DNA from: Kingdonia uniflora | Taxonomy: Eukaryota > Streptophyta > Magnoliopsida > Ranunculales > Circaeasteraceae | Length of the DNA: 64,000 nucleotides | Assembly: GCA_014058105.1 (NCBI GenBank) | Contig: JACGCM010002893.1 | Span: 558,001 to 622,000 of the forward strand | Direction: 5' to 3' | The notes under the pieces: model-generated | What the model was told of the DNA's origin: nothing | Seen by the model: the letters and a program-made list of their open reading frames with translations, nothing else | Databases searched by the model: none | Made by a program: the position numbers and the translations under genes | In this document: positions 3,038-59,459 of the stretch, in pieces | Position numbering within the stretch: the stretch's first letter is position 1 | Layout: each line of letters starts with the position of its first letter

Positions 3038-3070
3038 GAATTGGTCTAAAACCCTATAAACTTGGCAACT

Positions 3071-3230: not shown

Positions 3231-3601
3231 TCTCAACTTCTTTTGGTGGGTCCTTCACAACGGCTTGTTTTGGATCACAACGGCTACTTTTTGCTTTATA
3301 TATATATTGGCTGGAGATGCTCTAACAACACTCCTCTACTTGAACTCAACAATGTCGAGTTTTTCCGCTCTAATACAGGATTCTTCGGTGGTATTTGGCT
3401 GGAATGAAGACTGCGCCCCTGGCTGCGTCCTATCACTATTTTGTTGATAATCTACCTTTCTGACAACTCAACTTCAATTAGTTATGGAATAAGATTCATG
3501 TCCAATTCAGGATGCACACAAAACTTCGATACCCTCCTGGAGATTTATATAACAGGTAGAATATTATTAAGGCTAAGTGTGATGAGTTTTATGAGATACG
3601 G

Positions 3602-3841
3602 ATGAGCATTGATATACGGGTCAGAGATGTTCCACTAACCTATATTCTCCGCGAAGCCAAAGATGAATGGTATGACAAATACAACCAGTTGTTCCCGTTC
3701 GAGACTCCATATCATTTTTTTTACCGGAACTACATCCCGCCTGATCCTTCTGTAAATTATCGGCTAGAAAACTATAGACGGGATCCGCTCCCCCTTACTG
3801 AATGGTCTGAGTATATTCTTTACATAAGATGTGAACGATGA
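3602..3841 (+). other. Unrecognised short ORF in the A1-specific insertion
   Basis: A 79-codon open frame contains a Tyr/Pro-rich stretch (YHFFYRNYIPPDP). The same frame stays mostly readable upstream to about 3470 with one stop. I do not recognise a family. It lies in about 1 kb (3050-4080) that A2 lacks, between the internal palindrome and the PMD 3' end, so it may be a captured or inserted fragment. Translation may be chance. Confidence 0.25.
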
Positions 3842-4092
3842 ATTAAATTTAATTGTATCTGTTTTGAGTTATATTTCGTGCCTAGAACTACTATTTTAAG
3901 AATTGTAATTGCATTTCTATTTAAATTCAAGACTCAAAATAAATTAATTAATATTGATTTATATAAAAATGCGGATCAGGTCGTACAAGTACTTATATAG
4001 AGAAATAAACCCAAAATTAGCAATATAATTTGTTCAACACTAATGTTTACAATAAAAGATTACGTCTACAAAAATATCAAAAACACATATAT

Positions 4093-6276
4093 CTACTGAG
4101 ACAGGTCAGAATCATCTCTAGTACGTCGCCCCCTGTAGCTAGTACCGCTTCCCCTAATTCACGGACCAGATCAACGTTGCCTCGTCCTCGCGCCACCTCC
4201 AGGTGGTAGCGGCACCACCCGTACGTCACGCCCCCTCCTCATATGTAGGTCCTGAACGGGACAAAGACAATTTATAAATATTTTGACAAAATAAATATGA
4301 CATTAAGAAATAAATAAATACATAAATAAATTACTTACATGTGCATATAGCTGGTCGTCTACACTGTCCAAGTGCCTCCTCAGAGTAGCTACCTCATCAG
4401 TCAACTCCTACATCCTCTAGGCGTCCCGCGTAGACTCTGTAAGGCAAAGTCGTTGCATACCATGAGTCAGGTGCCACAACTCCTTTGCATTATAGGAGGC
4501 AGACATCTATAGGGAGTCCTTCAAGCGGTTGATGGGGAGCAGCTCACTCCTCCCTGTCCACTCCATGTGCCACCCCGGGTCTGGCCCCTCGGGCTTGCCA
4601 AGCAAATTGAAGTCCTGGGACAAGCTATGAACCGACGCTGACATTATCACCATGAGTGTAATACCAGCCCTGAGTGCAAAGGGTCCGAATAGATCTATAT
4701 TCCCCATCCTCTGGGAATCTGTCAACAGGGGGCCTACCTCCGCAGTTTGGGCAGCTCAGTATGAAGTGTAAGTCTCTTGCTCCTCCTCTATCACAAACTG
4801 CTCACAGTCAACGAAGCCGGCCTATTTCATCGCCTGTAAATCTATTGGACTAAGATGTGGCGACATGCTAAGAGGAGGATCCAAAGAAATACCCGCAGTG
4901 CCAGTTAATTACCTCCAACATTTATCCCCCAAGTAATACTCGCAGTTTCTATTTGGGACTTGGAGTGGCATCCTCGTATGGGACAGGAGCGACGTTCTTC
5001 GTACATCATCTAACTCTGACACCGCAGGTTTCAACCAAGGTCGCCAGGTGATCATCTTAATAGTCTGGTAGTTAATGTGATATTTGTCTAGCATAAACAA
5101 ATTGCCTACCTGGTCATTTGTTTTCTTCCTGTTCCCCCTCTCCCATGCTCTGAGGTGCGGATAGGCCAAGAACTAAACATCTTCCTTGACAATAGGGTGG
5201 CCAACCCCACAATACTCGTAGAACCAATAATGTATTTCAGAACAACATAAAAAACAATTATAAATTATATTTAAGATGTTATTGGAAGATATTTGATTTG
5301 TAACTTGTAAGAAAAAAGTGTTGGTATACCGTCAAAAGTTGGGAAAATCCAATGATGGCACCCCCGGTCGTGACTGCAGTATCCAAACCATGGTACAAGA
5401 AAGCAAGAATAGCAGAACCCCAGTCATATTGGGCAACCTCGTCCAAATCGGCCACGGCCGTGAGATATCTAAGCGGGACGGTGTCGTTAGCCATTTGGAA
5501 CCACAAATATCCCATCATGAAGAGGATAAAAACATGAACAATAGTAATATTATTCTCCTGATCAGCTGCAATGGTCAAGTACATCCTCAAATATAAAATG
5601 TTGACATTCCCACTCTTTATATGGCTGTAATTAATGTTGGGGAGCAATTGCCTCGTATTGGATAAAACACTCCATGCGTCACCATACGGCACTTGTGTCG
5701 GATATCGGCTGATTGATAATGATGTCAGCATTTGGAAATCGAGAGGAGTGACCCCTATCTCCGCACACGGGAATAGAAACGTGTGCGTGGTCGGCCACCA
5801 ACGCTCTGTAAGCACCTGAATTAGCCGATTACCGGAATTGCCTAAGCGTATATCCATAAATTACCCGAATATATTCACCACGGCATCTCTTACAGGTAGA
5901 ATTGTGGAAATCTCCTTCCACACTTTGATCACCATAACGAATGTGCCGTGCGGACGCATCGAATCCCGATTATGTTCATTGGAGCATTTTGTCAAACACT
6001 TGATTTATGGAAATAACAAATTCACAATTACACTAAAACTTTCTGTGAGTTCATTGCCAGTGTAATAAAAATGAGTGACGCCATATGAAAGTTGGGTAAT
6101 AAATCTCTGCAGGTAGTTTCTTGGGGTGGGTTTGGTATAGGTTGTTGGGCATCTTCAAATTCTACTTGTTTTTTCTTCATTCCAAACCTCGACCGAGTTA
6201 CGGCTCGCTCTGGATCTCTTGTCACTCTAAACCCAGGTAATGTAATGTCGTGCGGGTTTCCCTTTGGTATATGCAT
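4093..6276 (-). pseudogene. Plant mobile domain (PMD, aminotransferase-like) gene of element A1, degenerate
   Basis: PMD proteins include Arabidopsis MAIN, MAIL1 and PP7L, nuclear factors tied to gene expression and transposon silencing. Related domains are often found on transposons. The start chosen is the ATG at 6276 (MHIPKGN), with a basic RSRFGMKKK stretch behind it. The diagnostic block is at 5857 downward: NRLIQVLTERWWPTTHTF, then GVTPLDFQMLTSL, then the ILFMMGYLWF and MANDTVPLRYL segments. A further exon (about 5225-4370) holds YPHLRAWERG and DSQRMGNIDLFGPFALRAG. The C-terminus ends with basic PLPPGGGARTRQR and a stop at 4093. Several in-frame stops are present. It starts 253 bp inside the right terminus and reads inward. 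Confidence 0.82.
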
Positions 6277-6451
6277 TGTGTTTTGAAAGAAATTGGGAAA
6301 ATTTTCAGGTATACCTTCGATTTGAGAGAGAGAGAAGGAAACACTATTATAAAACTCGAGTTGGGTGTGATTTTGGGTTACCGTACAGTGTTTTGAACTC
6401 TTCCAATTAAAAAAAATAAAAAATTACACGTGTACAACTCAAACTTGAGAG

Positions 6452-6532
6452 AGTGGGTGTGGGTTGGGTTTTTTGTGGGCTCCCTGTCAGAGCCCACACC
6501 CAAACTCAAACGGGGTGCTAGAGATGCTCTTA
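6452..6532. repeat. Right terminal region of A1 and TTA target site
   Basis: An imperfect inverted repeat of GTGTGGGTTGGG and CCCACACCCAAACTC (about 6455-6510) lies just inside the terminal GAGCATCTCTAGCAC (reverse complement of 6515-6529). The same arrangement is seen at both ends of A2. TTA at 6530-6532 is the presumptive target-site copy. Confidence 0.75.
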
Positions 6533-8172: not shown

Positions 8173-8174
8173 TT

Positions 8175-28283: not shown

Positions 28284-28429
28284 GAGCAAACGCAGCAGGG
28301 TGTGGGTTGAGTTGGGTTTGCAAACCCACACTCAAACGTCTCCCAGCAGCGACTGTTTGGGTGTGAGTTGGATGACTTGGCGCTACAGGAACTCAACCGA
28401 GTGTGAGGAACTCACACTAATTTTTTTTT

Positions 28430-28500
28430 GAGTTTGGCGGTGTTTAGATCACCGCGCGGTGTTCTTTTTACCGCGCGGCGATCTAAACACCTCCAAACTC
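28430..28500. repeat. Palindrome at the ORF1 side of A2
   Basis: A 71-bp inverted repeat starts GAGTTTGGCGGTGTTTAGAT and ends as its near reverse complement, with a core of two CCGCGCGG units around TGTTCTTTTTA. It lies 146 bp inside the left end and 80 bp before ORF1. Confidence 0.92.
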
Positions 28501-28581
28501 AATTATTTTGATCAACACTCCCTGACAACTTCTTCCCCAACCCAATTGCGGAGCTGAGGAGAACCTCTACGCTCTCCCCAA

Positions 28582-30060
28582 ATGATGAACTCCGGCACCA
28601 GTAGTAATAACTCTACACCGTCGACCCCATCCTCCCATAACCCACGTTCAGTACCATTCGCTCAACACCCATCATCATATTCACTCCATACCTCTACCAA
28701 AACTCATCGCAATTTCAACCTCAATTCCAATCATAGGCCCCACCTCCGTTTACCATGTCGCAAGGGGATCCTAGTTATGGACAATATCAAAGTCCATTTA
28801 CACTCTCTCAACCACAACCTCAGACGTTTAGCCCGTACTATCAACCCTCTCCGCTCACTTAGCCTCAAGGTTTTCAACCTCCAAATTACTTTTAGAACTA
28901 TCTATTCCATGGTGAATCTACTCAGCACAATCAAAGTGACGCAAATGCGTCAATACCTGTTAAAGCGACGGCTCCCCAGAAAGAAAAAGGAAAAGGAAGA
29001 AAAAAAAGAACACCCGCAAAACAAAGACCAAGCGTGTAAGTGCCAGAAGATTATGAGTTTTTAGACGAGACAGATGATGCTGGAATGTATTGAACGGATG
29101 TAGACTTTACGTGTCTCGCAAGGGCGTGGGTAACAACTTCTGTCCAAACAAATGGCCGCACAAAAAGTTTTACTTTATATCAAAATATTAACATTGCCTT
29201 TAATAGAGACCCCAAGTGTTCCACACGATGATCATCTGGGTCAACCAAATCTCAGTGGTATGCCCTTAATGCACAATGTGTGGCGTACAAGGGGATAGTT
29301 GCTCAAGAACAATTTAAGAATAGCAGCGAAAAAATAGAAGAAGATCGGGTACGCTATAATTTCTTTTAATTCAATGTCAATTATTTCTCGCGGATATACA
29401 CGTTATTTATTTGTATTGGGTAATTTTGCTAATTGTAGAAAAATGATGCATACAAAATCTATAAAGGCTTGAATGGCGACAATGACTTCAAACACCGTGA
29501 AGCGTATAAGATTTTGGCACGAGAACCGCGATGGGCCAAACTAAGGATGATGGGTTGAACCATGTGATGAATATACCAAGAAATGTAGCCAGAAGAACAT
29601 CAGACAATTCTTCTCTGGGGAACTCAGTCGGATCAAACAATCTATCGGAGGACCCCGACGGCCCACCTACACCTCAATCCCCCGGCCCAAATTTTGACTT
29701 AGATGGTTCGTTGTATGAAGGTGGAAGCAGGCCCATCGGCTAAAAACTCTATAGAAAGAACCTTGCATCACAAAAGGCAATAGAGGGTGTGACTGCATCT
29801 GGTAGCGGTATCTAAATAATGCTAGATGAACTACGGTTGGAGAAGATACAAGCAAAAAAAAGAAAAGGAAAGAAGAAGAGCAGAAGCAATGCAACACTGG
29901 CAAGCTAAAATGGAATTGGAGCAAGCAAAGGAAGACCGCAAAATCATAGAGAAAGACTTGAGTACTCTTTCTGGACATCAATTGCAATACTATCTGCAAA
30001 GGCAAGCTGAGATCATGGAACGTCTGGCCAAGAGGGGCGGACCAGGTACTTGAAGTGGTG
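28582..30060 (+). pseudogene. Harbinger ORF1 (trihelix/Myb-like accessory protein) of A2, frameshifted
   Basis: The start is the ATG at 28582 (MMNSGTSSNNSTPSTP), giving an N-terminal Ser/Asn/Pro-rich region. The frame shifts within the first 60 codons. Later blocks include a trihelix-like part (FLDETDDAGMY, then FNRDPK and YALNAQCVAYKGIVAQEQF) and, after a probable intron starting at the GTACGC donor at about 29349, a segment ending EDPDGPPTPQSPGPNFD. The C-terminal coiled coil (about 29826-30053) is acidic and basic in turn and ends HLAKRGG-like (ERLAKRGGPGT). The domain arrangement, Myb-like head plus NAM-associated-type coiled tail, is standard for Harbinger ORF1. It is broken by several frameshifts and converges on the transposase. 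Confidence 0.72.
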
Positions 30061-30425
30061 ATGAAATATAATTTAACTTTGTTGTATATATAAGTTTTTT
30101 ATCCAAGAATATAGTTTAATAACCAATAATGTAAACGTTTGAATAATGTAATACTCAAAATTCTACAGTTTGTTTTTGAAATGTTTATTTCTGATAATAT
30201 TGCGTTAAAACAAATACAAGATCAATATTGTATTAAAAAAACAAGTTTAATAAACTTGTACGACTAAGAGAAGCATTAAATTACATCAAGAACACACAAA
30301 TAATACAAGAAATGGAGTACTAATTTTGAAGATTTCCCTTCACGGCCCACAAATGCTCGATTAGATCATCCTTTAGATCAAAGTGAAGTTCTCGACTTCG
30401 AATCCGGTTCATTCGATATAAAAGA

Positions 30426-31655
30426 TTATATTGTTCCGCGTTCGCGTACAATATCAAACCGTTCGCCTTCGATAGTTGAGGGCTCGACCAGATTGTAGTC
30501 TAAGTATGATGGGAATGCACCTCGTTCCTCTTCGATGATCATATTGTACATTATCACGCACGCCTTCATGACATTGCTCAAAACTTGGGGGTCCCACAAT
30601 TTAACCGGATTTTTTATAACATTGAACCGAGATTGTAAAACCCCAAACGCCCGTTCTACGTCTTTTCGGCAACTTTTTTGTTGTTGAGCAAATAATTTTT
30701 GTTTCGCTGTAACCGGATTGGATATGGTTTGGACAAGTGTTCCCCATTTGGGGTATATGCTATCCGCTAGGTAATACCCCATATCATAAGCTTTTCTGGC
30801 AATTGTATAGTTGCAAGGCGGAGCGATACCATCGGCTAGGTCGGTGAAAAGATGTGATTGTTGCAGGAGATTGATATCATTGTAAAACCCTGGTAACCCA
30901 AAAAAAGTATGCAAAATCCAAAGGTCGTGTGAAGCTACCGCTTCAAGAATCGGTGTCGCATTGGGGTAATGACCAGTAAATTGACCGTGCCAAGCTTTGG
31001 GACAATTTTTCCATATTCAATGCATGCAATCAAGGCTTCCTAACATGTCGGGAAATCCCTGGGACTCTCCGATCGCTTTTAACTTTTCGACGTCGGCCGC
31101 GTTTGGTGTTTGAAGATATTCCTCGCCAAAAATTTGTATAACCACAACACAAAACCTTTTCACACATAACAAGGTTGTGTTTTCTCCTATTCAGATATAT
31201 TCGTCAAAAAGATCTACCACAACACCGTAGCTTAGAAAACGTAGTGCTGTGACTACCTTTTGGTACGGTGATAACCCCATAGTACCAGCGTTGTTGGGTT
31301 TTTGGACAAAATAATGATCATGTGCAACGACTGCTTCGAATAGACGCATAAACATGTCTCTACTCATACGAAAATGTCGCCGAAATTCCCATGGCTCATA
31401 TGTGCAATTCGGCTTGAAGTAGTCTCGTATAATGCTGTAATGCCCCAATGGGTGATCTCGCTTCTTTCTCTTATCCTTACGGCCCATGACACTCCCGCCG
31501 TAACTCGAAGTTGTATCCTCAACTACTATGTTCACTGCAGCTTGGTGCAGAACGTAAATTGCCACCGCACAATTAAAGATAAGATCGTCATCGGAGGACG
31601 ACGATGATAAACCTGGAGGATCGGGTATGGATGAATCAGATGATGAAGAAGACAT
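30426..31655 (-). pseudogene. Harbinger DDE transposase of A2, with nonsense codons
   Basis: The start is the ATG at 31655 (MSSSSSDSSIPDPPG), about 120 bp from the central palindrome. The N-terminal region has KDKRKKRDHPLGHY and a helix-turn-helix-like FRMSRDMFMRLFEAV. The catalytic residues are Asp in GSLDCMH, Asp in YNDINLLQQS, and Glu in DVERAFGVLQ, so all three acids are present. In-frame TGA codons replace Arg in EYIRIGE (about 31189) and Trp after DCMH (about 31021). Homology with A1 continues to about 30290, past a further stop at 30426. It is otherwise full length for a plant Harbinger transposase (about 400 residues). Confidence 0.9.
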
Positions 31656-31775
31656 TTGAGGCTGTGGAGTTGAGAGAATGGTGTAATATCAGATGGTGAA
31701 CAAGTTTCCAATGGATGAGAGAAGTGTAAAAATATGAAAAATATAAAAGGGGAAGAAGTTGTGGGTCTTTTTCCC

Positions 31776-31867
31776 TAGATTTGGCGGTGAAATGAACACT
31801 GCGCGGTGTTCCTTTTACCGCGCGGTAAAAGGAACACCACGCAGTGTTCATTTCACCGCCAAATCTA
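31776..31867. repeat. 92-bp palindrome between transposition and PMD modules of A2
   Basis: It starts TAGATTTGGCGGTGAAATGA and ends with the reverse complement of that string. The core has three CCGCGCGG-like octamers separated by TGTTCCTTTTA and its complement. The match to 2963-3037 of A1 places it at the same junction in both copies. Confidence 0.95.
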
Positions 31868-31895
31868 TATTTTTATTTGAACTCAGTGATAATTT

Positions 31896-32067
31896 TGTTC
31901 GAATAAAATTAGGTTCTATTCGAATAAAACTGCTCAGTGCCAAATTGTGTAAAATTGTTAAAATTTATTCGAATAGACATTGAAAAAACTCTACCAAGAA
32001 CCTAAAAACTTCACCAAATAGTCAGTAGAAATGTAAAATACCTCAGTGCAAATTTATTCGAACAGAC
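31896..32067. repeat. Array of TTCGAATA motifs
   Basis: Four TTCGAA motifs (GTTCGAATAAA, ATTCGAATAAA, ATTCGAATAGA, ATTCGAACAGA) lie between the central palindrome and the 3' end of the PMD gene. A1 has GTTCGAAC motifs in the equivalent place. Confidence 0.7.
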
Positions 32068-32218
32068 AAATAGTCAATTTCAACATTAGATAATCATGGC
32101 TAATGAACATTAAGAACATCCAAAACATTGTCTACAAATATATCGTCTACTCATAATCATCTACATAATCAAAGTTGAGCTTCTACATCGTCTAAAAAAA
32201 CATAAAAATTACCTATAT

Positions 32219-34398
32219 CTACTCAGAATCATCTCCAGCACCCCGCCCCTGCGACTAGTACCGCCTTCCCTGGTTCGCGGACCAGATCTACGCTGCCTTA
32301 TCCTCGCGCCACCTCCAGGTGGTAGCGGCACCACCCGTATGTCACGCCCCCTCCTCAGCTGTAGGTCCTGAACGGGACAAAAAAACTTTATAAATTTTTT
32401 GACAAAATAAATATGACATTAAGAAAAAACACCGCAATAAATACATAAATAAAATACTTACATGGGCATTTAGCTGATGATCTATACTGTTAATTTGCCT
32501 GCGGGCAATAGCAAGCTCATCCTCCACCTCCTGGAGCCTCTATGCGTCCCGCGCAGACTCTGCAAGGACGAGTCACCGCATACCATGGGTCAAGTACCAC
32601 AGCTCCTCTACGCCGTAGGAGGAAGACATGGGTGGCGGGTCCCTCAAGCGGGCGATGGGGAGTATCTCACGCCGCCTTGTTCACTCCATGTGCCATCCCG
32701 GGTCTGGCCCCTCCGCCTCGCCAGGGAAACTAAAGTCCTGGAACATGCTATGAACCAACGCTGACGTCACCACTGCGGGTGTAATACCAGCTCTAAGTAC
32801 AGTCGGTCCGAACAGATCTATATTTCCCATCCTTTGGGAATCTGTCAACATGTGGCCTACCTCCAAAATTTGTTCAGCCCAATATGAGGCATAAGTCTCT
32901 CGCTCCTCCCCTACCACAAACTGCTCACAGTCAAGGAACCCGGCCTGTCTCATCTCATGTAAAGCCGCTGGACTAATATGTGGTGACATGCTAAGCGGAG
33001 GATCCAAAGGAATATGCACCTCGCCAGTCACCTGCCTCCAGCATCTATCCCTCAAGTAATATTCATAGTTTCCGTTTGGTACTTGAAGTGGCATCTTTTT
33101 ACGGGATATGAGTTTTGCATTCAGTACGTCCTCTGTCTCAGACACTGCAGAATCTAACCAAGGTTCCTATGTGATCATTTCAACAATGCGGCGATCAATA
33201 TGGTATCTGCCTAGAATAAATAGATTGGTTGTCTGGTCATTTGTTTTCCTCATGTTCCCCCTCTCCCATGCTCTGAGACGCGGATAAGCCGAGTACTTTA
33301 TCTCTTCCTTGACTATAGGGTGACCAACCCCACAATACTCGTAGAACCAATACTGCATTTCAGAATAGCATAAAAAATAATACGAATTTATATTTAAGAC
33401 ATTTATTGGAAGATATTTGATTTGAAAAAGGAAAAAGTGTTAGTGTACCGGAAGAAGTTGCACAAATCTAGTGATTGCACCCCCGGTCGTGACTGCGGTA
33501 TCCAAACCATGGTACAGGGAAGCAAGAATAGCAGAACCCCAGTCAAATTGGGCACAACCGAGTCCAAATCGTTTACGGCCGCGAGATATCCAAGCGGGAC
33601 GATGTCGTTGGCCATTTAGAACCACAAATGTCCCATCATGAAGAGGATAAAAGCACGAGCAATAGTAATATCATCATCCCGATCAGCTGTAATGGTCAAG
33701 TACGTCCTCAAATGTGCAATACTGACGTTCCCACTCTTTATATGGCTGGAATCAATGTTGAGGAGCAATTGCCTCGCATTAGATAAAATAGACCATGTGT
33801 CGTCATATGGCACCTGTGTCAGACATCGGCCGATGGACAATGATGTCAGCATAGTAAAATTGAGAGGAGTGACCCCTATCTCTGCACAAGGGAATAAAAA
33901 TGTGTGTGTGGTCGGCCACCAACGCTCTGTAAGCGCCTGAATTAGCCGATTATCTGAATTGCCCAAGCGTATATCCATAAACTGTCCAAAAAATTCACCA
34001 CGGCGTCCCTTACAGCTGGAATTGTAACAATATTCTTTCACACTTTGAACACCGTAGTAAATGTGTCGTGCACGCATCGAATCCCGATTTTGTTCATTGA
34101 GACATTTTGTCAAACACATGATTTATGGAAAAAACAAATTCACAATTACACTAAAACTTACCGCGAGTTCCTTTCCTGTGTAATAGATGTGACTGACTCC
34201 GTCTGGGAGTTGGGTAATACACCTCCATGGGAAGTTATCTTCGGTTGGGTTTGGTATATCTTGGGGTTGGACATCTATAAATTCCACTTGCTTTTTCTTC
34301 CTTCTGGACCTCGAGCGAGTTACGGAACGCTCTGGATCTCTTGTTCCTATAAATTCAGGCAGAGTACTGGGGTGTGGGTCTCTCTCTGACATATGCAT
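32219..34398 (-). pseudogene. Plant mobile domain (PMD) gene of element A2, nearly complete
   Basis: The start chosen is the ATG at 34398 (MHMSERDPHPSTLPEF), 321 bp inside the right terminus. Exon 1 has a basic RSRSRRKKKQVEF stretch. After an intron, 34119-33616 reads GQFMDIRLGNSDNRL, then LTERWWPTTHTFLFPC, GVTPLNFTMLTSLSIGR and ARAFILFMMGHLWF, the core PMD pattern. A single stop follows before MANDIVPLGYLAAV. A later exon (about 33350-32480) holds YPRLRAWERGN, MPLQVPNGNYEYYL and DSQRMGNIDLFGPTVLRAG. The C-terminus is basic (QLRRGRDIRV, PLPPGGGARIRQRR), ending in an acidic DDSE-stop at 32219. Few lesions are visible: a stop near 33613 and a frame change near 33530. It is the best-preserved family-A PMD copy. 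Confidence 0.85.
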
Positions 34399-34510
34399 TT
34401 TGATTTTGTTGGAATTCAAATATTTTTTACCAAGGGATTTTTGAGAGAGAGCTAGATGTAAAAATTGTGAAAATAGTCGAATTACTAGTAAGTTTTACTT
34501 ACAGTTGATG

Positions 34511-34580
34511 CGGCGGTGTTTGGAACCCCGCGCGGTGTTCCTTTTACTGCGCGGTAAAAGGAACACCACGTGGTGTTTTA
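34511..34580. repeat. Palindrome at the PMD side of A2
   Basis: An inverted repeat centred on ACTGCGCGGT, with arms of GCGGTGTTCCTTTTA and TAAAAGGAACACC (strongest at 34529-34570). It is the third member of the palindrome set, about 140 bp inside the right end and upstream of the PMD start. Confidence 0.88.
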
Positions 34581-34722
34581 ATCTTCTCTAAATTAAAAAA
34601 AGAACTCCACGTAGGAAACTTACACTATCTGCTGGGAGAGGTCGGGTGTGAGTTGTGGGTTTAGCGGGCCAGGGTGTCAGAACTCAGACCCAAACCCACA
34701 CTCGCTGCTAGAGATGCTCTAA

Positions 34723-43557: not shown

Positions 43558-43647
43558 GAGCATGGCCATCACTAGGGTCGGTGAATTCACCCAAATCCAA
43601 TCCACCCAACAAAAGTTTGGTCTAAAACAAGGTGAATATTACTCATC

Positions 43648-43740
43648 GCAGTTCTGAACCGCGGGGGACAACCAACGTCTGAGATTAGCCACGTGTCTCC
43701 ATCATAAGCGTTTAAACCATACACGCAGTTCAGAAATGCG
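43648..43740. repeat. GCAGTTCWGAACTGC palindromes, left cluster of B1
   Basis: GCAGTTCTGAACCGCG (43648) and GCAGTTCAGAAATGCG (43725), both slightly decayed. They lie 90-170 bp inside the PMD-side terminus. A further GCCGCGCGGC palindrome at about 43794 precedes the PMD start. Confidence 0.8.
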
Positions 43741-43951
43741 GGGAGTGATAACCAATTAGACAGTGCTACGTAGCTGTTTTTGATTTAAATATTGCCGCGC
43801 GGCATCAACTGCAAAGAAAAAGCCACTCCCTCCCCTCACCTACTTCATATTTTGTTCCCCAAGTTTCCCTCCAAACCATAATCACCCAAAACCAACATAT
43901 TCCCAGCCCCCACATTTTTCTACCGAATTCAACGCCATTAATAGAATAACA

Positions 43952-45153
43952 ATGTCGGGAGAGTCTAGTTTGCAACTGGGGCTATGTATATCCCAAAATA
44001 AGACGTAGTGTAAGCTCCGAAGTTAAGCGAAGGGGGAAAGAATTGGTAACCAACATGTGGTCGCTGCACCTCACGGAAAATAATCCTGCCCAAACCCTCG
44101 AGGATTTACACCAAGTTTATATTATCCCGGACAACTGGGTCCATATTTCTGCTGGATCAGAGGAAATGCCGGTAAGCTTTTTGCGTAAAATTAGTGTTAT
44201 TAACGTTGTTTGCGAAATGTTCGACAAAATGCCAGAATAAAAATTTAAAGTGTTAATGTGATTTTTTTCAGAACCGAGATCAAATACAATGTAGGGGATC
44301 ACTATATAAGGTATTGAAGTGGTACCAATGGATTACCAAGTATCCGACGTTGAAGAGGTTGGTCGACGATATGGGTTTCAAAGAGTTTTTGTCGATTAAG
44401 GTGGGAAACTCTAATAACCGCTTGATTTATGCTACCGTGAAACGATAGTGGCCTTCCACCCATACATTTCACTTCCTTTGCGGGGAACTTGGTTTTACGC
44501 CATTAGACTTCGTCATGCTAACGAACTTATTTTGTAGGATGGGTCTCGAACTCCTGTACAACGATAAGTACTCGAGGTTCGATGAAGCAGAACAAATGTT
44601 TACCATAATCATAAGCAATGATATCAGGTATGGTAACATCACTCTCACGTATTTGAAAATGTAGAAAGAGATTTTAAATCCAGAACTCAACAATTACAAC
44701 CAAGACATGGATATAGTGTATGCGAGGACATTTATTGCATATATGATGGGTAATATCTTTTTCTCAAATGCTAGCACGTCTTTTCCAACGGGTTATCTTA
44801 CATCTTTGACAGACCACCATATTATAGGTACATCAAAGTTTGACTGGGATACTCCGATCCCGGCCATTCAGGTACCACACCCGTGTCCACCTAGGTATGA
44901 TGTGGATGAGTTGTGGCATCAAAATATTAGAATGTGGTATACGACATATAAAGAGTCCAGACAATACGTTGAACGTACAGAGAAGTTAGAGGAACAGGTG
45001 TGCCAGTCATAAAATATTATCAGAGTCACGGGAGAAAGACTAGCTGATATGTCTATCAACTACCAGACAGAGCCGGATGTACAATATACCTATGATGAGA
45101 GTCTCGCACGTAGTAGACGCGTCCGCCAAGCGAAGAGAGGCCATCCCACTTAG
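43952..45153 (+). pseudogene. Plant mobile domain (PMD) gene of element B1, internally deleted
   Basis: The start is the ATG at 43952 (MSGESS), 394 bp inside the left terminus. Exon 1 ends at 44171 with a GTAAGC donor after VHISAGSEEMP. Exon 2 begins at 44272 after TTTTTTTCAG. Core blocks are KWYQWITKYPTLKRLVDDMG, GNSNNRLIYATVKR, STHTFHFLCGELGFTPLDF and RTFIAYMMGNIFFSN, the PMD pattern of family B. After TPIPAIQ it jumps directly to PPRYDVDELWHQN, near the C-terminus. B2 has about 0.8 kb between these points, so a central part is deleted. It ends RQAKRGHPT-stop at 45153. There are in-frame stops near 43989, 44447 and 44662. Confidence 0.8.
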
Positions 45154-45372
45154 GCCATAAAATTTATTATGCTATGTTTAAACTACGTTTGATATACTAT
45201 GTTTTGTTCAGAACTTTGATATACTATGTTTAAACTACGTTTAATTGATTATTCATTGTCTAAAAATTATATGTTGTGATACTTGTGTTTACTTCAAATA
45301 TGTTTGTCCGTACTTGATTTTTTCAAGTATTTGAAGAAATGCCTAAAAGAAAACCACAAAAAAAAATATATA

Positions 45373-45600
45373 GAGAGGGGAACTCCAAAGATTTCATGCA
45401 GGCTTTTGCCGCCCAGTTCTGAACTGCGAGGCAAACATGGGGGACACGTGGCTCCATCTGAGTTGTCTATCTAACTTGCAATTTTGTACTGTAGGGCAAA
45501 CAGGGAAACCAGATTAAGCCACGTGTCCCCCTTGTTTGCCACGCAGTTCTGAACTGCGCGGCAAGAGCCTACATGAAATCTTTGGAGCTCCCTTCTCTAT
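45373..45600. repeat. 228-bp inverted repeat between PMD and ORF1 modules of B1
   Basis: The left arm (GAGGGGAACTCCAAAGATTT to about 45456) and the right arm (45515-45600) are near reverse complements. Each contains CAGTTCTGAACTGCG (45414 and 45544) and GGGGGACACGTGGC. The right arm is also the outer part of the ORF1 promoter block and recurs inverted at 49580-49630. Confidence 0.92.
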
Positions 45601-45894
45601 ACTTATTTTTTTTATAGTTTTCTTTTAGGTATTTCCTTAAACACAATCCCTTACCCTCTATTGTGTGTGCATCTCTTCATACTTAGTTTTTTTTTTCTCC
45701 ATTTCTTTTAGGCATTTCCTCAAACACCTCTCCATACTTAGTTGTTTTATGATCACCTCTCCATACTTAGTTATTTTATGACCTCCTTGGAAATTATCAT
45801 CACTTAGTTGTTTTACAAAAATTATCATCACTTAGTTATTTTATGACCTCCTCTCTATATTTAGTTTTTTTGGTGATCAAAACCCTTATATATT

Positions 45895-46150
45895 TTTGGG
45901 CAAACTTGTTGACCAAGTAGCTCAACAACTAGTTTTTGGGGCAAAACAATTAGTTTTTGGGACAAACTTGTTAGCCAAGTAGCTCAACGACTAGTTTTTT
46001 GTGTAAACTTGTTGACCAAGTAGCTTAACGGTTAGTTTTTTGTGCAAACATGTTGACCAAGTAGCTCAACAGCTCATTTTTATTATCTATAAAGGTCATT
46101 CATCTTCTGCACTTTATGCTATTAATCTCTACACTCTCCTCCCTCCTTAG
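45895..46150 (+). promoter_or_regulatory. ORF1 promoter of B1 with about 43-bp tandem repeats and TATA box
   Basis: Four tandem units of roughly 43 bp (CAAACTTGTTGACCAAGTAG, then CTCAACGACTAGTTTTT) are followed by TATAAA at 46088-46093, about 80 bp before the ATG, and TCATTCATCTTCT. The same block in inverted orientation precedes the transposase (49357-49560). ORF1 and transposase therefore share promoter sequence. Confidence 0.7.
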
Positions 46151-46168
46151 CTTATAAACAAAACCACC

Positions 46169-47730
46169 ATGTCATCCTCAAGCTCCCAATCTAATTCTCA
46201 AAACCACTCTTAATCCTTTAATACAAACCAATAGGATAACTTATTTTCGGCTCAATTCGACGTATTTGATTCGTTACAAATGCCTAACTCTTCCCAATAT
46301 CGGGATCACCATATTCGATAACTATTCCCGCCACCCGATATTCATTTTTAATCTCAACTCTATCCCCAAAGTACCAATTATAACCCTTATTACCAAATCC
46401 AAGAATATTATCCTCAATTTGATACTCATACGGGCTCGTACTCTCAACCAGGGAATTCATATTTTTCTTTTCAAATTGATTTAATCGGTGGAAGTTCGAG
46501 TACCATGCCGATGAGAGGTACATGGGGTTTAAATAATTTAAACCTCAATACATCACCGGTTGTATCTCCGATTGTCAATCCGATTCTCACGAGAAGTAAT
46601 ACGCACGGAAAGGCGAAGCCTAAAAGAAAGACGGCACCAACACCTATTTGTAGTTGAGGATGTAGTTGAGGTTAAGGATAAAGTTGATGACGATAAAGAA
46701 AGATACAAGAACTCCAAAAATTGGGCGTCCAATGATTTCGTGAATCTCGCATGTATTTTGCCCCAAGTCTCTCAAAACCTCGCTACCACGAACAACCAAA
46801 AAGCTGTTACATTTTGGTTCAAGGTGCGTGACCAATTCAACTCATTTTATAATAATCAATCGATCTTGCGATCATACAACAGTGTCAATTACGCGTATAA
46901 GGGGTGGCTCAATAAGGATTGATCGATCTTCAGAGGCATCATTCAAGATCTTGAAAGCCGATATTTTACCGGTATTGGATCAGGCGACGTTATAAGTATT
47001 TAATTTTTTTTCTCATTTCATTAATTTTACTAGGTTAATCGTACTCATAAGAATTTGAAATTTGATTTCTAGGTTGGTATGGCATGAGAGACCTTCGAAA
47101 AAATACAAAAAAAAATCATTTTAATTTCGGGAAGCTTACAAAGTTTTGGAGCAATGCCCAAAATTGTCACAAATTCATCACATCGGGCAACCCGACCGCA
47201 ACGTCGCTAGGAAGTCAAATTTTAGCGATAGCCCGGGCAACTCCACCAACACCGAACCCTCTACACCTACTTTCAACACTCCAATGTCATAGTTCTGAAT
47301 GATTCTACCGACATGAATGTACCACTATATGCTTACGGGGAAGTACGACCAGACGGTAAAAAAAAATGCAAGGCAAAAGAAGCGACAAAGTCAAATATAG
47401 GTATTGGAGGAAGAAGATGCTTGAAACGACGACAAACATGATGGCGGCATGGAATAAGAGAGATGAGAAGAAGAAAGAGGAAAAAGAAGCTAGATCTAGA
47501 GTACGAGAGGAACAAAAGTTAGTTAGAGAGGCAGAGATTCAAATGAGGCGTGAAGTGGAGCTAACTAGAAAAGAAGCCATCGAAGAGAAAAAAATTGGTT
47601 AAAGTGATGATAACGAACAAAACTAACCTATTACCGGCACAAAAGCATTGAACGAAGAAGCAAATTAAACTTTATTTTAAGAAGTTAAAAAGAACAATGT
47701 CCAAGTGATGACGACGTTTTTAGTGATTAA
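46169..47730 (+). pseudogene. Harbinger ORF1 (trihelix/Myb-like) of B1, degenerate
   Basis: It starts MSSSSSQSNSQNHS at 46169. The N-terminal half is Gln/Asn/Tyr-rich (QDHHIR to YYQIQEYYPQFD). The trihelix-like domain spans about 46700-46990: NWASNDFVNLACILPQVSQN, then FWFKVRDQFNSFYNNQSI and IFRGIIQDLESRYFTGIGS. The C-terminal part is a Lys/Glu/Arg-rich coiled coil (MAAWNKRDEKKKEEKEAR, then EEQKLVREAEIQMRREVELT), ending SDDDVFSD-stop at 47730. Several frameshifts and stops. Layout and composition match ORF1 of B2. Confidence 0.75.
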
Positions 47731-47942
47731 GATTGATATAATCCTTAACGTTAATAGTAGTTCTTAAGTTCTATGTTATGGTTTATTTGAATAAAATTGT
47801 TATCAATCATTTTATTTTGCAAAACATATTTCAATCAAGTAGAAAAAATATATTACAACTTCAACATAAAACTACAAACTTCAAAATAAAATACATTACT
47901 TTAGAAAATAAAAAAACAATCTTCATGTAGAGAAACTCTACA

Positions 47943-49278
47943 TTACTCCGCCCCTTTTTGATTCCACAAATGCGCGACAAGTTCATTTCGTAATTGAAAA
48001 TAAACACCTTCATTTCTAATTTCATGAATCTTTTCGATGTACTATGCCATAGTGTTGAGAGCGTGTGCTGGATGTAATGTCTCATCCCAAGTATCCAGCA
48101 ATTTTCTAAACTTGGGATCAATATCCAATTGCCGGATGTAAGTATTACGTTTATCTTCGACGATCATGTTGTGCATGATTATGCATGCGTACATAACATT
48201 TCCAAGATCACTAGGCTTCCAAAATTGCGTACTGTGTGCCAATATTTTAAACCTAGCTTGTAATACCCTAAAAGCCCGCTCTACGTGCATCTTTGTAAAA
48301 TATCTTTGGGCATCGCTCGACGGATTTCTTATGGTTTGAACAATTGCTTTCCATTTTAGATCATCTGCTAAATAATACCCCATAATGTGTGGGACCGTGC
48401 CTATATTATAATTGCATGGCGGTGCAACTCCATTAGACAAGTTGTTGAAAAGCCACCCTTGATGCAAGACGTCCACGTCGTTGCTAAAACTGAGCACCCC
48501 AAAGAATGCGTGCCATATCCAAAGATCTTACGATGCAACTACTTTAAAATTACAGTTGGATGCTTTTATACCCAGTATATTATCCTACCCACCCGGTAGG
48601 ACAATTCTACAATTTCCAATACATACAATTTAAGTTACCTAACATCCCTGGGAAGCCTCGTGATCCATTCACTTCTGACAACCGTAATATATCATTTTTA
48701 TCAGGAGATCTAAGGTATTGAGCTTTGAATTATGTTATAATTATTTTACAAAATTCTTTCAAACACAAATTACCCATAGACTCCCCAATCCGAACGTATT
48801 CGTCTTGGGCGTCTGCGCTCGCATCGTAACATAACATGCGAAGTGCACACGTTATCTTTTGGTGCGATGATAAGCCCATCATTTTAGCGGCATTTTCTTT
48901 TTGAACAAAATAGGTAATCAAATAAATAACTTGATCATGAATACGTTGATGCACACCTTCGCTCATACGGAATCGACGACAAAATGGGATGTCATTGAAA
49001 ACTTGGTTGGAACCAAAATAATCCAGATTAAGACTAAACTCACCCAATTTATGATCACACACTTTCCGCTTGTCAATCCTTCCCATTTTACTACCCCCCC
49101 CCCCCCCCCCCCGCCTCCATGATCTTTTTGCCTTTTGTTCTATTTCTTCTGCTTCTCCCATCTCAATGAGAACCGTGCTATACTCATGCATCATCATAAT
49201 TTCATATTGGAAGAGCTCTTCGGTTCCGTACGAGGATGAAGACGACGATGACAAGGATGAGAGTAATAGGTCAGACAT
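47943..49278 (-). pseudogene. Harbinger DDE transposase of B1, catalytic Asp changed to Asn
   Basis: It starts MSDLLLSSLSSSSSSS at 49278. A Ser-rich head is followed by a poly-Gly run coded by an 18-bp G/C tract at 49096-49113, then KMGRIDKRKVCDHKLGEF. The first catalytic Asp is replaced: LGNLNCMYW, coded AAT at about 48622, against SLDCMYW in B2. The second Asp (NDVDVLHQG) and the Glu (VERAFRVLQ) remain. In-frame stops at 48730-48732 (ITxFKAQYL) and 48580-48582 (WVGxYTGY) occur at the same codons in B2. Another TAG is at about 48604. It ends HLWNQKGAE-stop at 47943 and converges on ORF1. Confidence 0.88.
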
Positions 49279-49289
49279 GATTAATCTAA

Positions 49290-49600
49290 ATTAATAACTA
49301 GAGAATGAAGTAGAGTATAAAATAGTAAGAGAATAGAGTGTAGTGGATGAATGGCTTTTATAGATGAAAAAACTAGCCGTTGAGCTTTCTTGTTAAACAA
49401 GTTTATGAAATAAGCTAGCCGTCGAGCTGCTTGTCAAATAAGTTTGCCCAAAAATAGAGAAGTTGAGCTTCTTGTCTAACAAACTTGCCAAAAAAACTGG
49501 CCGTTGAGTTTCTTGTCAAGCAAGTTTATTCATGGATATAACCATTTTGATCACCAAAATAACTAAGTATAGAGAGGGGAACAAAGAGGATTTCATGCAG
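49290..49600 (-). promoter_or_regulatory. Transposase promoter of B1, inverted copy of the ORF1 promoter
   Basis: Read on the minus strand, four roughly 43-bp units (AACTTGTTTGACAAGAAGCTC-like, then AACGGCTAGTTTTT) lead to TATAAA (49362-49357), 79 bp before the ATG, and the TTCATCTATAAAAGCCATTCATC context. It is homologous to 45895-46150. Confidence 0.7.
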
Positions 49601-49609
49601 GACCTAGCC

Positions 49610-49860
49610 GTGCAGTTCAGAACTGTGCGTCATGAACTAGCCATTGCAAACTACGTTTAAACCACAACCATTCACATGTCTCCATCATAAGCGTATATAT
49701 ACCCCGCAGTTCAGAACTGCAGGGAATGAGAGCCACTTGAATCTTGATAAGTGTCATCATGTAATTAGTTTATAGCCTACGCGCAGTTCAAAACTGTAGG
49801 GCATCAATCCACCAAAAATCTACCCTGAGGGTGGTGAGACCACCCTCAAGGTGGGTTTTA
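49610..49860. repeat. GCAGTTCWGAACTGC and CCACCCTSAGGGTGG palindromes, right cluster of B1
   Basis: GTGCAGTTCAGAACTGTGC (49610), CCGCAGTTCAGAACTGCAGG (49703) and GCGCAGTTCAAAACTGTAGG (49781) are spaced about 80-90 bp apart. CCACCCTCAAGGTGG-type palindromes follow at 49818-49856. The B2 left end has the same two palindrome types at matching positions. Confidence 0.85.
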
Positions 49861-50159
49861 CGTATATAGCTCAGTAGATTCACCTATATGTTGTGGGTGG
49901 ATTGGTGATCAAACAAGGTGAAGGATGGTTTTTACCTTGTCATGCCATCCTTCACCTAGCTGCTGGCCATGCTCTCACTTCAAAGATAAGAGTTCAAGTT
50001 TCACCGAATACCTTATGATTGCCCGAATCGGACTGACCTACAATTTGACCAAATCGTCCTTACTGTTATGAGCTTGAGCTTTTATTAACTATTTTATCCT
50101 TTGATCCATATGTTCTTGTGTGACGTATTGATGAGGGGTTGGAACTGTTTGGCGTGTAG

Positions 50160-55490: not shown

Positions 55491-55609
55491 GAGCATCCAC
55501 AACAGCTAGGTGCACCATGACGTAGCAAGGTAGATTTGAGAATCCACCCTCTTCTCAAATCCTTCACCTCCCAGAAGCTAGGTCAAAAATCCACGTGGCA
55601 ATGAATTTT

Positions 55610-55850
55610 CCACCCTGAGGGTGGAGAATCCACCCTCAGGGTAGATTCTTGGTGGATTGATACTGCGCAGTTATGAACTACGCGTAGCCTTCGAGCCAAT
55701 AAGATGATGACACTTGTCAAGCTTCTAGTGGCTCCCATGCCGCACAGTTCTGAATTGCACGTATATACAACGGTTAAAATTAAAACACGTGGACGGCTTA
55801 GATTTAAACAAAACCAAACGGCTAGTTCTTGCCGCGCGGTTCAGAACAAC
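55610..55850. repeat. Palindrome cluster at the transposase end of B2
   Basis: Two CCACCCTSAGGGTGG-type palindromes (55612-55641), then GCGCAGTTATGAACTACGCG (55665), CACAGTTCTGAATTGCACG (55743) and GCGCGGTTCAGAACAACTCG (55834), spaced about 80-90 bp as in B1. Confidence 0.82.
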
Positions 55851-56069
55851 TCGACAAGAGCCTGTATCAAATATATGTTGGTTCCCCTCCATACTTGGTT
55901 TTTCCCTGATCAAACTTCTTCAACAAGATGCTCAACGGCTATAAACGGCTAGTTTTTCTCTATTTATAAAAGCCATTCATCTTCTACTCTCTTACCCTTC
56001 TACAATCAACTCATTCATCTTATATCTCAAAACTGAACTTTTTTCCTTTGTTATCAATTTCGCCGAATC

Positions 56070-57449
56070 ATGTCTGACGAAATCTTGGTTGATCTATTCA
56101 TGTCTAACCCATCACTTTCATCTTTGAAGTCATCGTCTTCATCATCGTCTAGAAGCGAAGAGCTCTTCCGACGTCAAATTAAGTTGATGCACGAGTATAG
56201 CAAGATTATGATTAAGATGGGAGAAACAAAAGAAAAAAAGTAAGAAGCGACATCATCACGAAGGCGGGGAGGTAGTAAAATGGGAAGGATTGACAAGCGG
56301 AAAGGCCGTGATCATAAATTGGGGGAGTTTAGCCTTAATCGTGATTACTTCGGTGACAACCTAAGATTCAAAGGTATCCCATTTCGCCGTCGATTCCCTA
56401 TGAGCAAAGGTGTGTATCAACGTATTTATGATCAAATACTTTCTTCGAACCCCTATTTTATTCAAAGAGAAAATAGCACTAAGATGATGGGTTTATCCTC
56501 ACACCAAAAGATAACGTGCACACTTCACATGTTATGTTACGGTTCGAGCGCAGATGCCCAAGAAGAATACCTTCGGATTGGGGAGTCTACGACTATTTTG
56601 TCCTTGAATTTTTTTTATAAAACTATTATAACATAATTCAAAGCTCAATACCTTAGATATCTCAATGAAGATGATACATTACACTTGTTAGAAGTGAATG
56701 GATCGCAAGGCTTCCCGGGGATATTAAGTAGTTTAGATTGTATGTATTGGAAATATAACAATTGTCCTACCGGGTGGGTAGAATAATATACCGGGTATAC
56801 AAAAATTCCGACGATGATTTTAGAAGCTATTGTATCGCAAGATCTTTGGATATGGCACACATTCTTTGGGGTGCCCGGTTCTAACAACGACGTGAATGTC
56901 TTGCATCAAGGGTAGCTTTTTAACAACTTGCCTAATGGAGTTGCGCCGCAATGCAATTATAATATAAGAACGGTACCGCACACTATGGGATATTACTTAG
57001 CGGATGGAGTCTATCCAAAATGGCAAACACTTGTTCAAACCATAAGAAATCCGTCCAACAATGCCAAAAGATATTTTTTGAAGATGCAAAAAGCATGCCG
57101 AAAAGGCGTAGAACGTGCTTTTGAGGTATTACAAGCTAGGTTTCAAATATTGGCACACGGTACACGATTTTGGAAACCTAGTGATCTAGGAAATGTTATG
57201 TACGCATGTATAATCCTACACAATATGATCGTCGAAGTTGAACGTCATACTTACATCCGGCAAATGGAGATTGATCCCGAGTTTAGAACATCCATGAAGA
57301 ATTGGAAGGATGACTTAAATCCAAGATACGCGATCAACACTATGGCAGAGTACATCCAGAAGGTTCATGAAGTTAAAAATGAAGGTGCTCATTTCCAATT
57401 ACGAGATGAACTTGTCGCGCATTTGTGGAATCGAAAAGGTGCGGAGTAA
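56070..57449 (+). pseudogene. Harbinger DDE transposase of B2, with nonsense codons
   Basis: It starts MSDEILVDLFMSNPSLSS at 56070, about 100 bp after TATAAA (55965-55970). Blocks: KMGRIDKRKGRDHKLGEF, YFIQRENSTKMMGLSSHQ, first Asp in LSSLDCMYW, second Asp in PGSNNDVNVLHQ, Glu in KGVERAFEVLQ, HNMIVEVERHTY, and the C-terminal LRDELVAHLWNRKGAE-stop at 57449. All three catalytic acids are intact. In-frame stops lie at about 56241, 56634-56636, 56784-56786 and about 56913. The second and third are shared with B1. Apart from these it is full length and nearly readable. Confidence 0.9.
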
Positions 57450-57823
57450 TGTAGTCTTCATCATTGTTTTTTTATTTTCTAAAGTAATATATTTTGTTTC
57501 TAAGTTTTATGTTGAAGTTGTAATGTATTTTGTTTCCAAGTCTTCATCATTGTAACACTTTAAATAAACTTGGTTTACAACTTATACTTTTTGATTTTGT
57601 ACCCATTTCTTATGTTTTATTATTTTGGTAGAGATAAAGAGAATGAGAAAATCTGAGGTCCTGTAAGAAAGAAGTAAGAAGTAGAGTACATTATGGTAGA
57701 GTACATCCAGAAGGTTCAAATACGAATTAGATTAATGACAATTTTAAGGATTACGTACGATTAATAACAATTTTATTGAAATAATGAAATTACATAGAAC
57801 TACTATTAACACTAAGGATTACA

Positions 57824-59388
57824 TCAATCTTCATCACTAAAAACGTCGTCATCACTTGGACACTGCTCCTTCAAATATTCTTTAATTTGCTTATTCATCC
57901 AACGCCTTTGTACCGGTAATAAGTTACTTGGGTCCGTTGTCATCACCTTAACTATATGCGCATCTTCGATAACTTTTTTTTGAATTAGCTCCGCTTCACG
58001 TCTTCTTTGAATCTCAGCCTCTCTAGCCAACTTTAATTCCTCTCATGCTTTAGCTCTAGTTTCATTTTCCTCTTTCTTTTGCTCGTCTCTCTCATTCTAT
58101 GTCTTTTATCATGTTGGTCATTGTCTCAAACATCTTCTTCCCCCAATAACCTATACTTGACTTTACCATTTTTTTTGCCTTGTATTTTTTTTTTTGCCGT
58201 TCGGTCGTACATCCCCACAAGAATATAATGGTGCATCCACGTCGATAGAATCATCCGGAATTATAAAATTTGGAGTGCCAGATGTAGGTGTTTCAAGATC
58301 GTTATTGGTGGAGTTACCCGGGCTATCGTTAAAATTTGACTTTCTAGCGACGTTGCGGCCGGGTTGCCCAATATGACGAATTTGTGATCATTTTGGGCAA
58401 GTTTCTAAAACTTTGTACATTTCCCCAAGTATAAATAGTTTGTGTTGTAGTTGTGTGAATGTATCGTATGTCATACGTTCCTAGAAATCAAGTTAGAAAA
58501 TTCTTTAGAGTATGATTCACCTTTGAACATTAATGAAATGAGAAAAATAAATGAAATACTTACGAAGTCAGCTGTTCCAATACCGATAAAATATTGGCTC
58601 TCAAGGTCTTGAATGAGACCTCTAAAAATTGAACATTCCTTATTGAGCCGTCTCTTATACACACAATTGACTCTATTGTACGATCGCCACATCGATTGGT
58701 CAACATATAAGGAGTTGAATTAATCACGCACCTTAAACCAAAATGTAGCAATTTTTTGGTTGCTCGTGGTAGCGAGGGTTTTGAGACACTTGGGACCAAG
58801 CGCTTGCAAGATTCACGAAGTTATCGGACGACCAATTTTTTGAGTTCTTATATCTTTCTTTGTCGTCATCAACTTCATCCTCAACTACATCCTCAACTAT
58901 AATAGGCGTCGATGCTATCTTTCTTTTAGACTTTACCTTCCCACGCGTATTACTTCTCTTGAGAATCGGATTGAGTTCCTTGGAGATGACCGAAGAGACA
59001 ACCGGAGATGCAACCGGCGATGTATTAAGATTTAAATTATTTAAATTCTATGTACCTTGCATCGGCGTGGTACTCAAACTTTCACCAGTGAAAGCGGTTT
59101 GAGATGAATAATATGGATTCCTCAGTTAAGGGTGCGAGCCCGTATACCCATCAAATTAAGGGTAATATCCTTGGTTTGGGTATAAGGGTAATATCTATGG
59201 ATTTGGGATTGAAATTGATTGTCGGATGCCAGGAATAGTTGGCGAATATACCTTAGATCTTGGGAAGTGTTAGGCATTTGCGACGGATCAAATATGCTGA
59301 ATTGAGGAGGAAAAACATTTCCTTGTTGGTTCGTATTGAAGGATTGAGAGTAGTTTTGAGAATTAGATTAAGAGCTTGAGGAAGACAT
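57824..59388 (-). pseudogene. Harbinger ORF1 (trihelix/Myb-like) of B2, degenerate
   Basis: It starts at the ATG at 59388 with the same MSSSSS start as B1, followed by a Gln/Asn/Tyr-rich region. The acidic linker VEDVVEDEVDDDKERYK leads into a trihelix-like domain (NWSSDNFVNLASAW, then ATFWFKVRD and IFRGLIQDLESQYFIGIG). The C-terminal coiled coil (AREAEIQRRREAELIQKK) ends PSDDDVFSDED-stop at 57824. It is longer-framed than B1 but still has stops and frameshifts. Upstream lies TATAAA (59472-59467), about 80 bp before the ATG. Confidence 0.75.
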
Positions 59389-59459
59389 AATGGTTTTGTT
59401 TGTAAGGTAAGGAGGGAGGATAGTATAGAAGATTAGAATGGAGGAGAGTGTAGGAGATG

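Follow-up and report, generated by a model that had tools for sequence, protein, structure and literature searches.

Plant PIF/Harbinger transposons such as PIF, Pong and Master are described as two-gene elements in which a DDE transposase and a second open reading frame (ORF1) lie between terminal inverted repeats (TIRs), flanked by a 3-bp TTA/TAA target site duplication (TSD), with both orders of ORF1 and transposase known from different lineages (PMC2213677; statements on this and the papers cited below refer to excerpts of them). In Arabidopsis, MAIN, MAIL1 and PP7L, a system that ties plant mobile domain (PMD) proteins to motif-sharing promoters, are needed to express genes with a common short promoter motif (PMC7156037; PMC9899485) and also silence transposons (PMC7156037; PMC5418596; PMC9899485). 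The present study characterised a 64,000-base window (the whole stretch of DNA analysed), positions 558001-622000 of contig C190 in the 1,003,380,622-base (1.0-Gb) Kingdonia uniflora assembly, which holds four PIF/Harbinger elements (E1 to E4) of two families, A and B. Unlike PIF, Pong and Master, the 6.4-6.6 kb elements of this early-branching eudicot bear a third gene, PMD, at one end. There is very little doubt that PMD is a standard third gene of these transposons, moved together with ORF1 and transposase within one TIR pair in both families.

Where transposable elements carry a PMD, it has so far been described either as an extra ORF, in retrotransposons, or as part of a fusion, in Mutator-like elements (MULEs). 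Such PMDs are suspected of countering silencing, a role that one review proposes in general terms (PMC8616336). In Ty3/gypsy elements, which belong to another transposon class, PMD-A is likewise an added ORF typical of a lineage (PMC5418596; PMC6317226), and PMD is present in 57% of Ogre elements (PMC6317226). MULEs resemble the Kingdonia elements as DNA transposons bearing PMD; their PMD-C, however, is fused to the transposase and held to be a captured host PMD-C, in grasses and Amborella (PMC5418596), whereas the Kingdonia PMD is a separate gene, far from host-like PMDs. No report of PMD in PIF/Harbinger was found in the literature searched, most subscription papers, Repbase and preprints lying outside the search, and excerpts of PMC4583175 mention PMD and Harbinger in separate places only. 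The Kingdonia elements point to Harbinger as a third transposon superfamily that has taken up PMD, besides Gypsy and MULE. A recent study reportedly deals with modules of PMD proteins and DNA motifs set against Polycomb silencing; it may touch on transposons and could bear on the novelty of these elements.

The elements and their genes are as follows.

1..6529: element E1, family A; left end truncated beyond the window, right terminus ...GATGCTC at 6529
1845..2579, minus strand: E1 transposase piece (Plant_tran; PF04827, 8.5e-60)
4105..6276, minus strand: E1 PMD gene, decayed (PF10536, 1.1e-21); extent by match to annotated PMD proteins
28284..34719: element E2, family A; GAGCA...TGCTC termini, TAA on both sides
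28558..30053, plus strand: E2 ORF1 region, frames broken, start at about 28584; assigned by place and by eye
30426..31655, minus strand: E2 transposase (Plant_tran; PF04827, 1.2e-76)
32222..34398, minus strand: E2 PMD gene in four exons (34398-34162, 34116-33449, 33352-32462, 32367-32222), the end of exon 4 set by protein match
43558..49974: element E3, family B; GAGCA...TGCTC termini, without a clean duplication
43952..45069, plus strand: E3 PMD gene with internal deletion, by similarity to annotated PMD proteins
48042..49290, minus strand: E3 transposase, decayed, by similarity to the other three transposases
55491..62129: element E4, family B; GAGCA...TGCTC termini, TAA on both sides
56244..57449, plus strand: E4 transposase (Plant_tran), decayed (PF04827, 4.1e-42)
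57500..59400, minus strand: E4 ORF1 region, assigned by place and by eye
59868..61772, minus strand: E4 PMD gene, decayed, by similarity to annotated PMD proteins

The initial annotation placed ORF1, transposase and PMD within one pair of GAGCA termini in all four elements. This description stands for E2, E3 and E4, which start with GAGCA and end with TGCTC, and is not borne out for E1, whose likeness to E2 stops at E2 position 187, that is 218 bases left of the window start, with no left terminus found in the 501 bases upstream of the window. As also claimed there, two elements, E2 and E4, have TAA on either side, which E3 has not, and the PMD gene reads inward in all four from a start 253 (E1), 321 (E2), 394 (E3) or 357 (E4) bases from one terminus. 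Family A comprises E1 and E2, whose main pieces are 81-87% identical. Family B comprises E3 and E4, which lie in mutually opposite orientation and are 73-81% identical in their larger pieces. The transposases of the two families are 48% identical. In family A, ORF1 comes first, and transposase and PMD then read back from the opposite end; in family B, transposase comes first, and ORF1 and PMD read back. ORF1 and transposase are therefore swapped between the families; the position of PMD, just inside one terminus, is the same in both. A DDE transposase of the Plant_tran/DDE_Tnp_4 type (PF04827 in E1, E2 and E4) and TIRs with the 3-bp TTA/TAA duplication in both families identify the elements as PIF/Harbinger. 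A conserved second reading region is the ORF1 candidate. The sole ORF1 piece scanned (E3, 46542-46922) gave one match below the cut-off, to another family, and no Myb/SANT match.

The PMD assignment in family A follows from PF10536 matches above the curated cut-off of 34.9 bits in E1 (77.9 bits, 1.1e-21) and E2 (37.8 bits, 1.7e-9). The annotated Kingdonia proteins P0002 and P0004 score 105.6 and 92.3 bits, and another family B copy 69 bits (5.6e-19). The only piece of the E4 PMD scanned (60608-61012) had no Pfam match; the third gene of E3 and E4 is called PMD on two grounds, its likeness to P0123 and P0002, PMD proteins annotated in Kingdonia, and the Pfam match of that other family B copy. 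A sequence search of the PDB returned no relative (best E 0.19), and a search of a plasmid collection returned no match.

The regularity with which PMD accompanies the two families was assessed across the assembly, in samples weighted towards the nearest kin of E2 and E4. When the whole of E2 was used as a DNA query, 23 places were scored out of 3,902 first-look candidates, E2 included, and all or part of PMD was present in every one of them; 16 are single-piece matches that cover essentially the full 6,436 bases at 87-100% identity, five more match in two or more pieces, and one place (C579:1061420) lacks part of PMD. Searches by whole-element DNA favour long matches, and a second sample was drawn by the transposase protein alone: the best 30 of 150 scored loci (5,596 candidates), with 1.5 kb on each side, all close E2 relatives and including E2. 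In 29 of these 30 loci the likeness continues as far as the last exons of PMD, which lie where the sampled sequence ends; only L022 stops short. Two of them traced outward (L013, L019) have PMD and terminus, as has L017, traced as a full-length copy. For family B, 18 places were scored from 4,375 candidates, E4 included, and 14 hold all or part of PMD. A B copy chosen by its transposase alone (L071) has PMD, and in two of 30 short B loci (L043, L062) internal deletions bring PMD-side sequence into reach. The initial proposal of PMD as a stable component of the elements is thus supported by 23/23 and 14/18 places (window copies included), by 29 of 30 transposase loci and by the third family described below; its converse, that most copies lack PMD, does not hold for the copies sampled. 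One of the 23 family A places (G000:C890:155753-159094) is a derivative with the left end and PMD but no transposase, a PMD-only element.

Duplicated triplets lie outside the whole three-gene unit. TWA triplets were judged by eye in seven A copies (E2 plus six full-length ones) and nine B copies for which the two ends had been read, and are identical on the two sides in ten of the 16. Five are from family A (E2, L072, L078, L082, L076; not L074 or L080) and five from family B (E4, C1302, C1666, C1401 and, after a one-base shift for a terminus deletion, C2530; not E3, C850, C502 or C1624). A tenth B copy, C869, is outside this count, its right end not having been reached. In ten A copies the alignment extends from the terminus across the exons of PMD; in two of these it ends before exon 4. 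No TIR/TSD pair was seen around PMD inside the elements, in the aligned A copies or in the 16 end-to-end copies, so the alternative in which PMD lies within its own TIR/TSD pair does not hold either.

A recent nested insertion of PMD was rejected, since the 16 end-to-end copies share the same PMD place and show no second TIR/TSD pair. That a PMD-bearing element entered an ancestral Harbinger copy is hardly credible. The 92-nt palindrome at the transposase/PMD border of E2 could be taken as a trace of such an event, but the same palindrome also occurs upstream of ORF1 and of PMD, and the common PMD place and the missing second TIR/TSD pair count against this origin as well.

A third family, C, was found through a transposase at C1:1089248, chosen from 150 listed Plant_tran matches (6,233 candidates) as seemingly outside family A, with an open frame and with its surroundings unseen. 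Upstream of it, on the same strand, lies a PMD gene; downstream, on the opposite strand, is a frame that by eye resembles ORF1. The family C transposase is 51% identical to that of A and 50% to that of B. With the family C PMD as DNA query, 40 places were scored out of 506 candidates. In 19 of these, C1 included, one of the 150 listed transposases lies 0.95-1.5 kb downstream on the same strand, against 0.012 expected. None of the 150 is near the remaining 21, a result of small weight because the listed transposases are the best 150 of 6,233 candidates. Family C termini were not found, and what is shown here is close linkage of PMD and transposase, not a shared TIR pair. The PMD genes of A and C share an intron that agrees in both position and phase (it follows GGLFQLIE and GFVQLLP), where family B reads through. 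Family C PMD copies are 90-95% identical to the C1 copy (in G000:C1:1086237-1089853), A copies 87-90% to E2 and B pieces 82-89% to E4; judged by these identities, family C is apparently younger than A and B.

All four window copies are decayed by stops, frameshifts or deletions. PMD exons 1-3 have eight in-frame stops in E1 and six in E2, the family B transposase frames four and five, the E4 PMD frame is broken, and E3 PMD lacks the part equivalent to about 220 residues of P0123. Across ten A copies, the 599 codons of PMD exons 1-3 hold 4.5 stops per copy in the true frame, whereas the shifted frames have 31.2 and 30.4, so the A copies descend from an open frame; the true transposase frame has 2.7 stops in 409 codons. 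The annotated P0002, a protein of 663 residues with apparently one intron read through, suggests that an open PMD copy exists. The mean ratio of non-synonymous to synonymous substitution rates (dN/dS) is 0.56 for PMD (0.70 and 0.76 in shifted frames; 0.48 for the E1-E2 pair) and 0.61 for the transposase among 30 copies, E1 left out (0.57 and 0.75 in shifted frames; 0.68 for the E1-E2 pair). That one shifted transposase frame scores below the true one shows how little power the measure has in copies so decayed.

These data bear on the possibility that an ancestral element caught a PMD gene and has carried it since without use. Decay of every window copy, internal deletions of PMD in E3 and in C579:1061420, and the poor separation of true and shifted frames by dN/dS all speak for such a passenger; yet PMD has been retained in three families whose transposases are 48-51% identical, its frame is low in stops, and its intron position is common to A and C. 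A mere passenger is considered very improbable.

The PMDs of the three families are themselves diverse (A-B 34% identity over 389 residues, C-A 28%, C-B 31%). Matches to the A protein (best 120 of 153) all come from Kingdonia, as do 56 of the 57 to the B protein. Three X proteins from outside Kingdonia, P0169, P0177 and P0178, which lie on short contigs and have 32, 11 and one member sequences, share 27-33% identity with P0002 (family A) and P0122 (family B). The A, B, C and X PMDs split from the host-like Kingdonia genes L001-L003, which we read as PMD-C (MAIN/MAIL type) from their sequences, with support of 100/100; a grouping of A, B and C apart from X is unsupported (78/72), C being a long branch. 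The PMDs of the elements thus belong to a transposon-type lineage that reaches beyond Kingdonia. Capture of a host PMD-C gene as the source of PMD is not supported, transposon-type and host-like PMDs being separate at 100/100.

Short palindromes mark the promoters of the elements at the following positions.

28436..28502: family A palindrome upstream of ORF1 (E2), shared core GAACACCGCGCGGTGTTC
31776..31867: family A palindrome upstream of transposase (E2), 92 nt, self-complementary, with the shared core
34512..34577: family A palindrome upstream of PMD (E2), with the shared core
43647..43740: two CGCAGTTCNGAACTGCG palindromes upstream of PMD (E3)
49611..49798: three palindromes at the transposase end (E3)
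55666..55851: three palindromes at the transposase end (E4)
61934..62062: two palindromes upstream of PMD (E4)

In E2 each of the three genes, ORF1, transposase and PMD, has its palindrome upstream, at about 80-210 bases from the start. Scored at five or fewer mismatches of 18, the family A palindrome is found at the transposase position in 30/30 loci, at the ORF1 position in 7/7 copies and at the PMD position in 8/10 (E1 has none there, and L069 has six mismatches). The family B palindrome CGCAGTTCNGAACTGCG, a motif different from that of A, occurs at least twice at the transposase end in 28/30 loci and at the PMD end in 8/8 copies. One first-order Markov resample of each set gave 3 matches versus 42 in the real set for A, and 1 versus 90 for B. 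Presence of a palindrome in many copies follows from descent and is in itself no proof of use; the telling point is its recurrence at separate sites within one element.

The 92-nt, near-perfect palindrome at 31776-31867 and the shorter one at 28436-28502 would form strong hairpins in transcripts, and are a possible source of small RNAs. In E3, an inverted repeat of 100-119 nt at 45336-45635 contains two family B palindromes and is perhaps a nested short element. A tandem block like CAACGGCTAGTTTTTT...TATAAA...CATTCATC, seen by eye at 55900-56000 and 59440-59580 in E4 and at 45930-46080 and 49370-49600 in E3, is common to the transposase and ORF1 promoters of family B, the PMD promoter seemingly having none; the two E4 blocks also show up in the family B DNA search.

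An expression role for PMD is inferred because the palindrome recurs upstream of all three family A genes and because the relatives MAIN, MAIL1 and PP7L are needed for motif-sharing genes. The protein would work in the nucleus, alone or with host partners of the PP7/PP7L type, and would act at the short palindromic sites in the element's own promoters; ORF1, transposase and PMD might thereby be co-expressed long enough for transposition. That PMD is such a nuclear factor, sustaining transcription of its own element or countering its silencing, is the likeliest of the roles considered, a tentative proposal put at a little under an even chance; the promoter palindromes fit it without proving it. 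In its working it would resemble VANC21 of VANDAL21, which likewise belongs to a DNA transposon, is distinct from the transposase and lifts silencing from its own family (PMC8616336). The VANC21 protein is, to our knowledge, unrelated to PMD.

The palindromes can also be understood as subterminal binding sites for transposase, ORF1 or PMD, with PMD a co-factor of transposition that helps to build the complex or restrains it. Family B palindromes at both ends, two to three at each and mostly 75-94 bases apart, would suit this arrangement, and certain PIF/Harbinger elements are known to have subterminal repeats (PMC2213677). One family A palindrome nevertheless lies mid-element, upstream of the transposase and about 2.9 kb from the nearer terminus, and putative autonomy has been ascribed to elements that have no gene besides transposase and ORF1 (PMC2213677). 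A co-factor role is held to be unlikely.

Another function would be that of a decoy disturbing host silencing by MAIN, MAIL1 and PP7L, for instance by pairing with host PMDs or phosphatase partners, and this we regard as improbable. The Kingdonia genome does contain the host-like genes L001-L003, transposons are silenced by MAIN and MAIL1 in Arabidopsis (PMC5418596), and a long C-terminal helix, confidently predicted in the model of one A protein and with a like region in B, C and X by eye, could pair. The A and B PMDs, however, are only 14-18% identical to the host-like genes (12-21% with X included), which makes shared partners uncertain.

Taken as a whole, the explanation we prefer, three-gene anatomy together with a PMD that sustains expression, is held to be about evenly balanced between right and wrong, and several observations weigh against it. 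Four of the 18 family B places lack PMD (C436, C459, C1414, C744). Two Plant_tran copies, C397:2768968 and C2198:542196, were probed over 800 bases where family C has its PMD, and neither showed a convincing one; the probe of one copy (L109) gave a single match at E 0.009, that of the other (L110) none. Family B palindromes are near both termini and none was seen upstream of ORF1 in E4, a distribution that fits transposase binding equally well, and the family C PMD shows no palindrome in the 420 upstream bases covered. The Arabidopsis DOWN motif example CATGCAGTTT, one published example used in place of the full published motif, is absent within one mismatch from all element promoters, which with the low identity of A and B proteins to host-like genes sets these elements apart from the Arabidopsis system; its single match in the whole window, at 1466 in E1, is intergenic and outside the promoters, and only a half-site (TGCAGTTC) resembles the motif. 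Structure prediction for PMD was poor (mean pLDDT 38.5) and the model was not used, and dN/dS is too weak as proof of selection on PMD.

C397:2768968 and C2198:542196 had been considered possible members of family C; neither matches the C, A or B DNA compared, so they may represent another family.

A wider form of the preferred explanation would see a Harbinger lineage with a full expression module, comprising its own PMD and the promoter palindromes that it recognises, acting against silencing, already in place before at least three transposase families diverged, and present in other plants too; this is rather unlikely. The Kingdonia Harbinger elements are nonetheless suggested to bring their own tool for staying switched on. 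PMD binding and action could be tested far more simply in such a compact DNA transposon, which has PMD as a gene of its own, exists in many copies and repeats palindromes in its promoters. The findings also concern annotation, public Kingdonia protein sets listing many transposon PMDs as ordinary proteins. Six gene models (P0131, P0138, P0141, P0164, P0167, P0171) fuse Harbinger PMD pieces to P450, NB-ARC, PPR and other ordinary domains, and are either annotation artefacts or real chimaeras.

Elsewhere in the window, a cluster of inverted repeats at 7577-10904, 84-94% complementary, perhaps consists of nested short transposons. By eye, frames at 14989-15981 resemble the end of a decayed Ty1/copia polyprotein, an open frame at 26593-27978, adjoining E2, is like a BCS1-type AAA ATPase, and a frame at 42095-42502, left of E3, is like a DHHC palmitoyltransferase.

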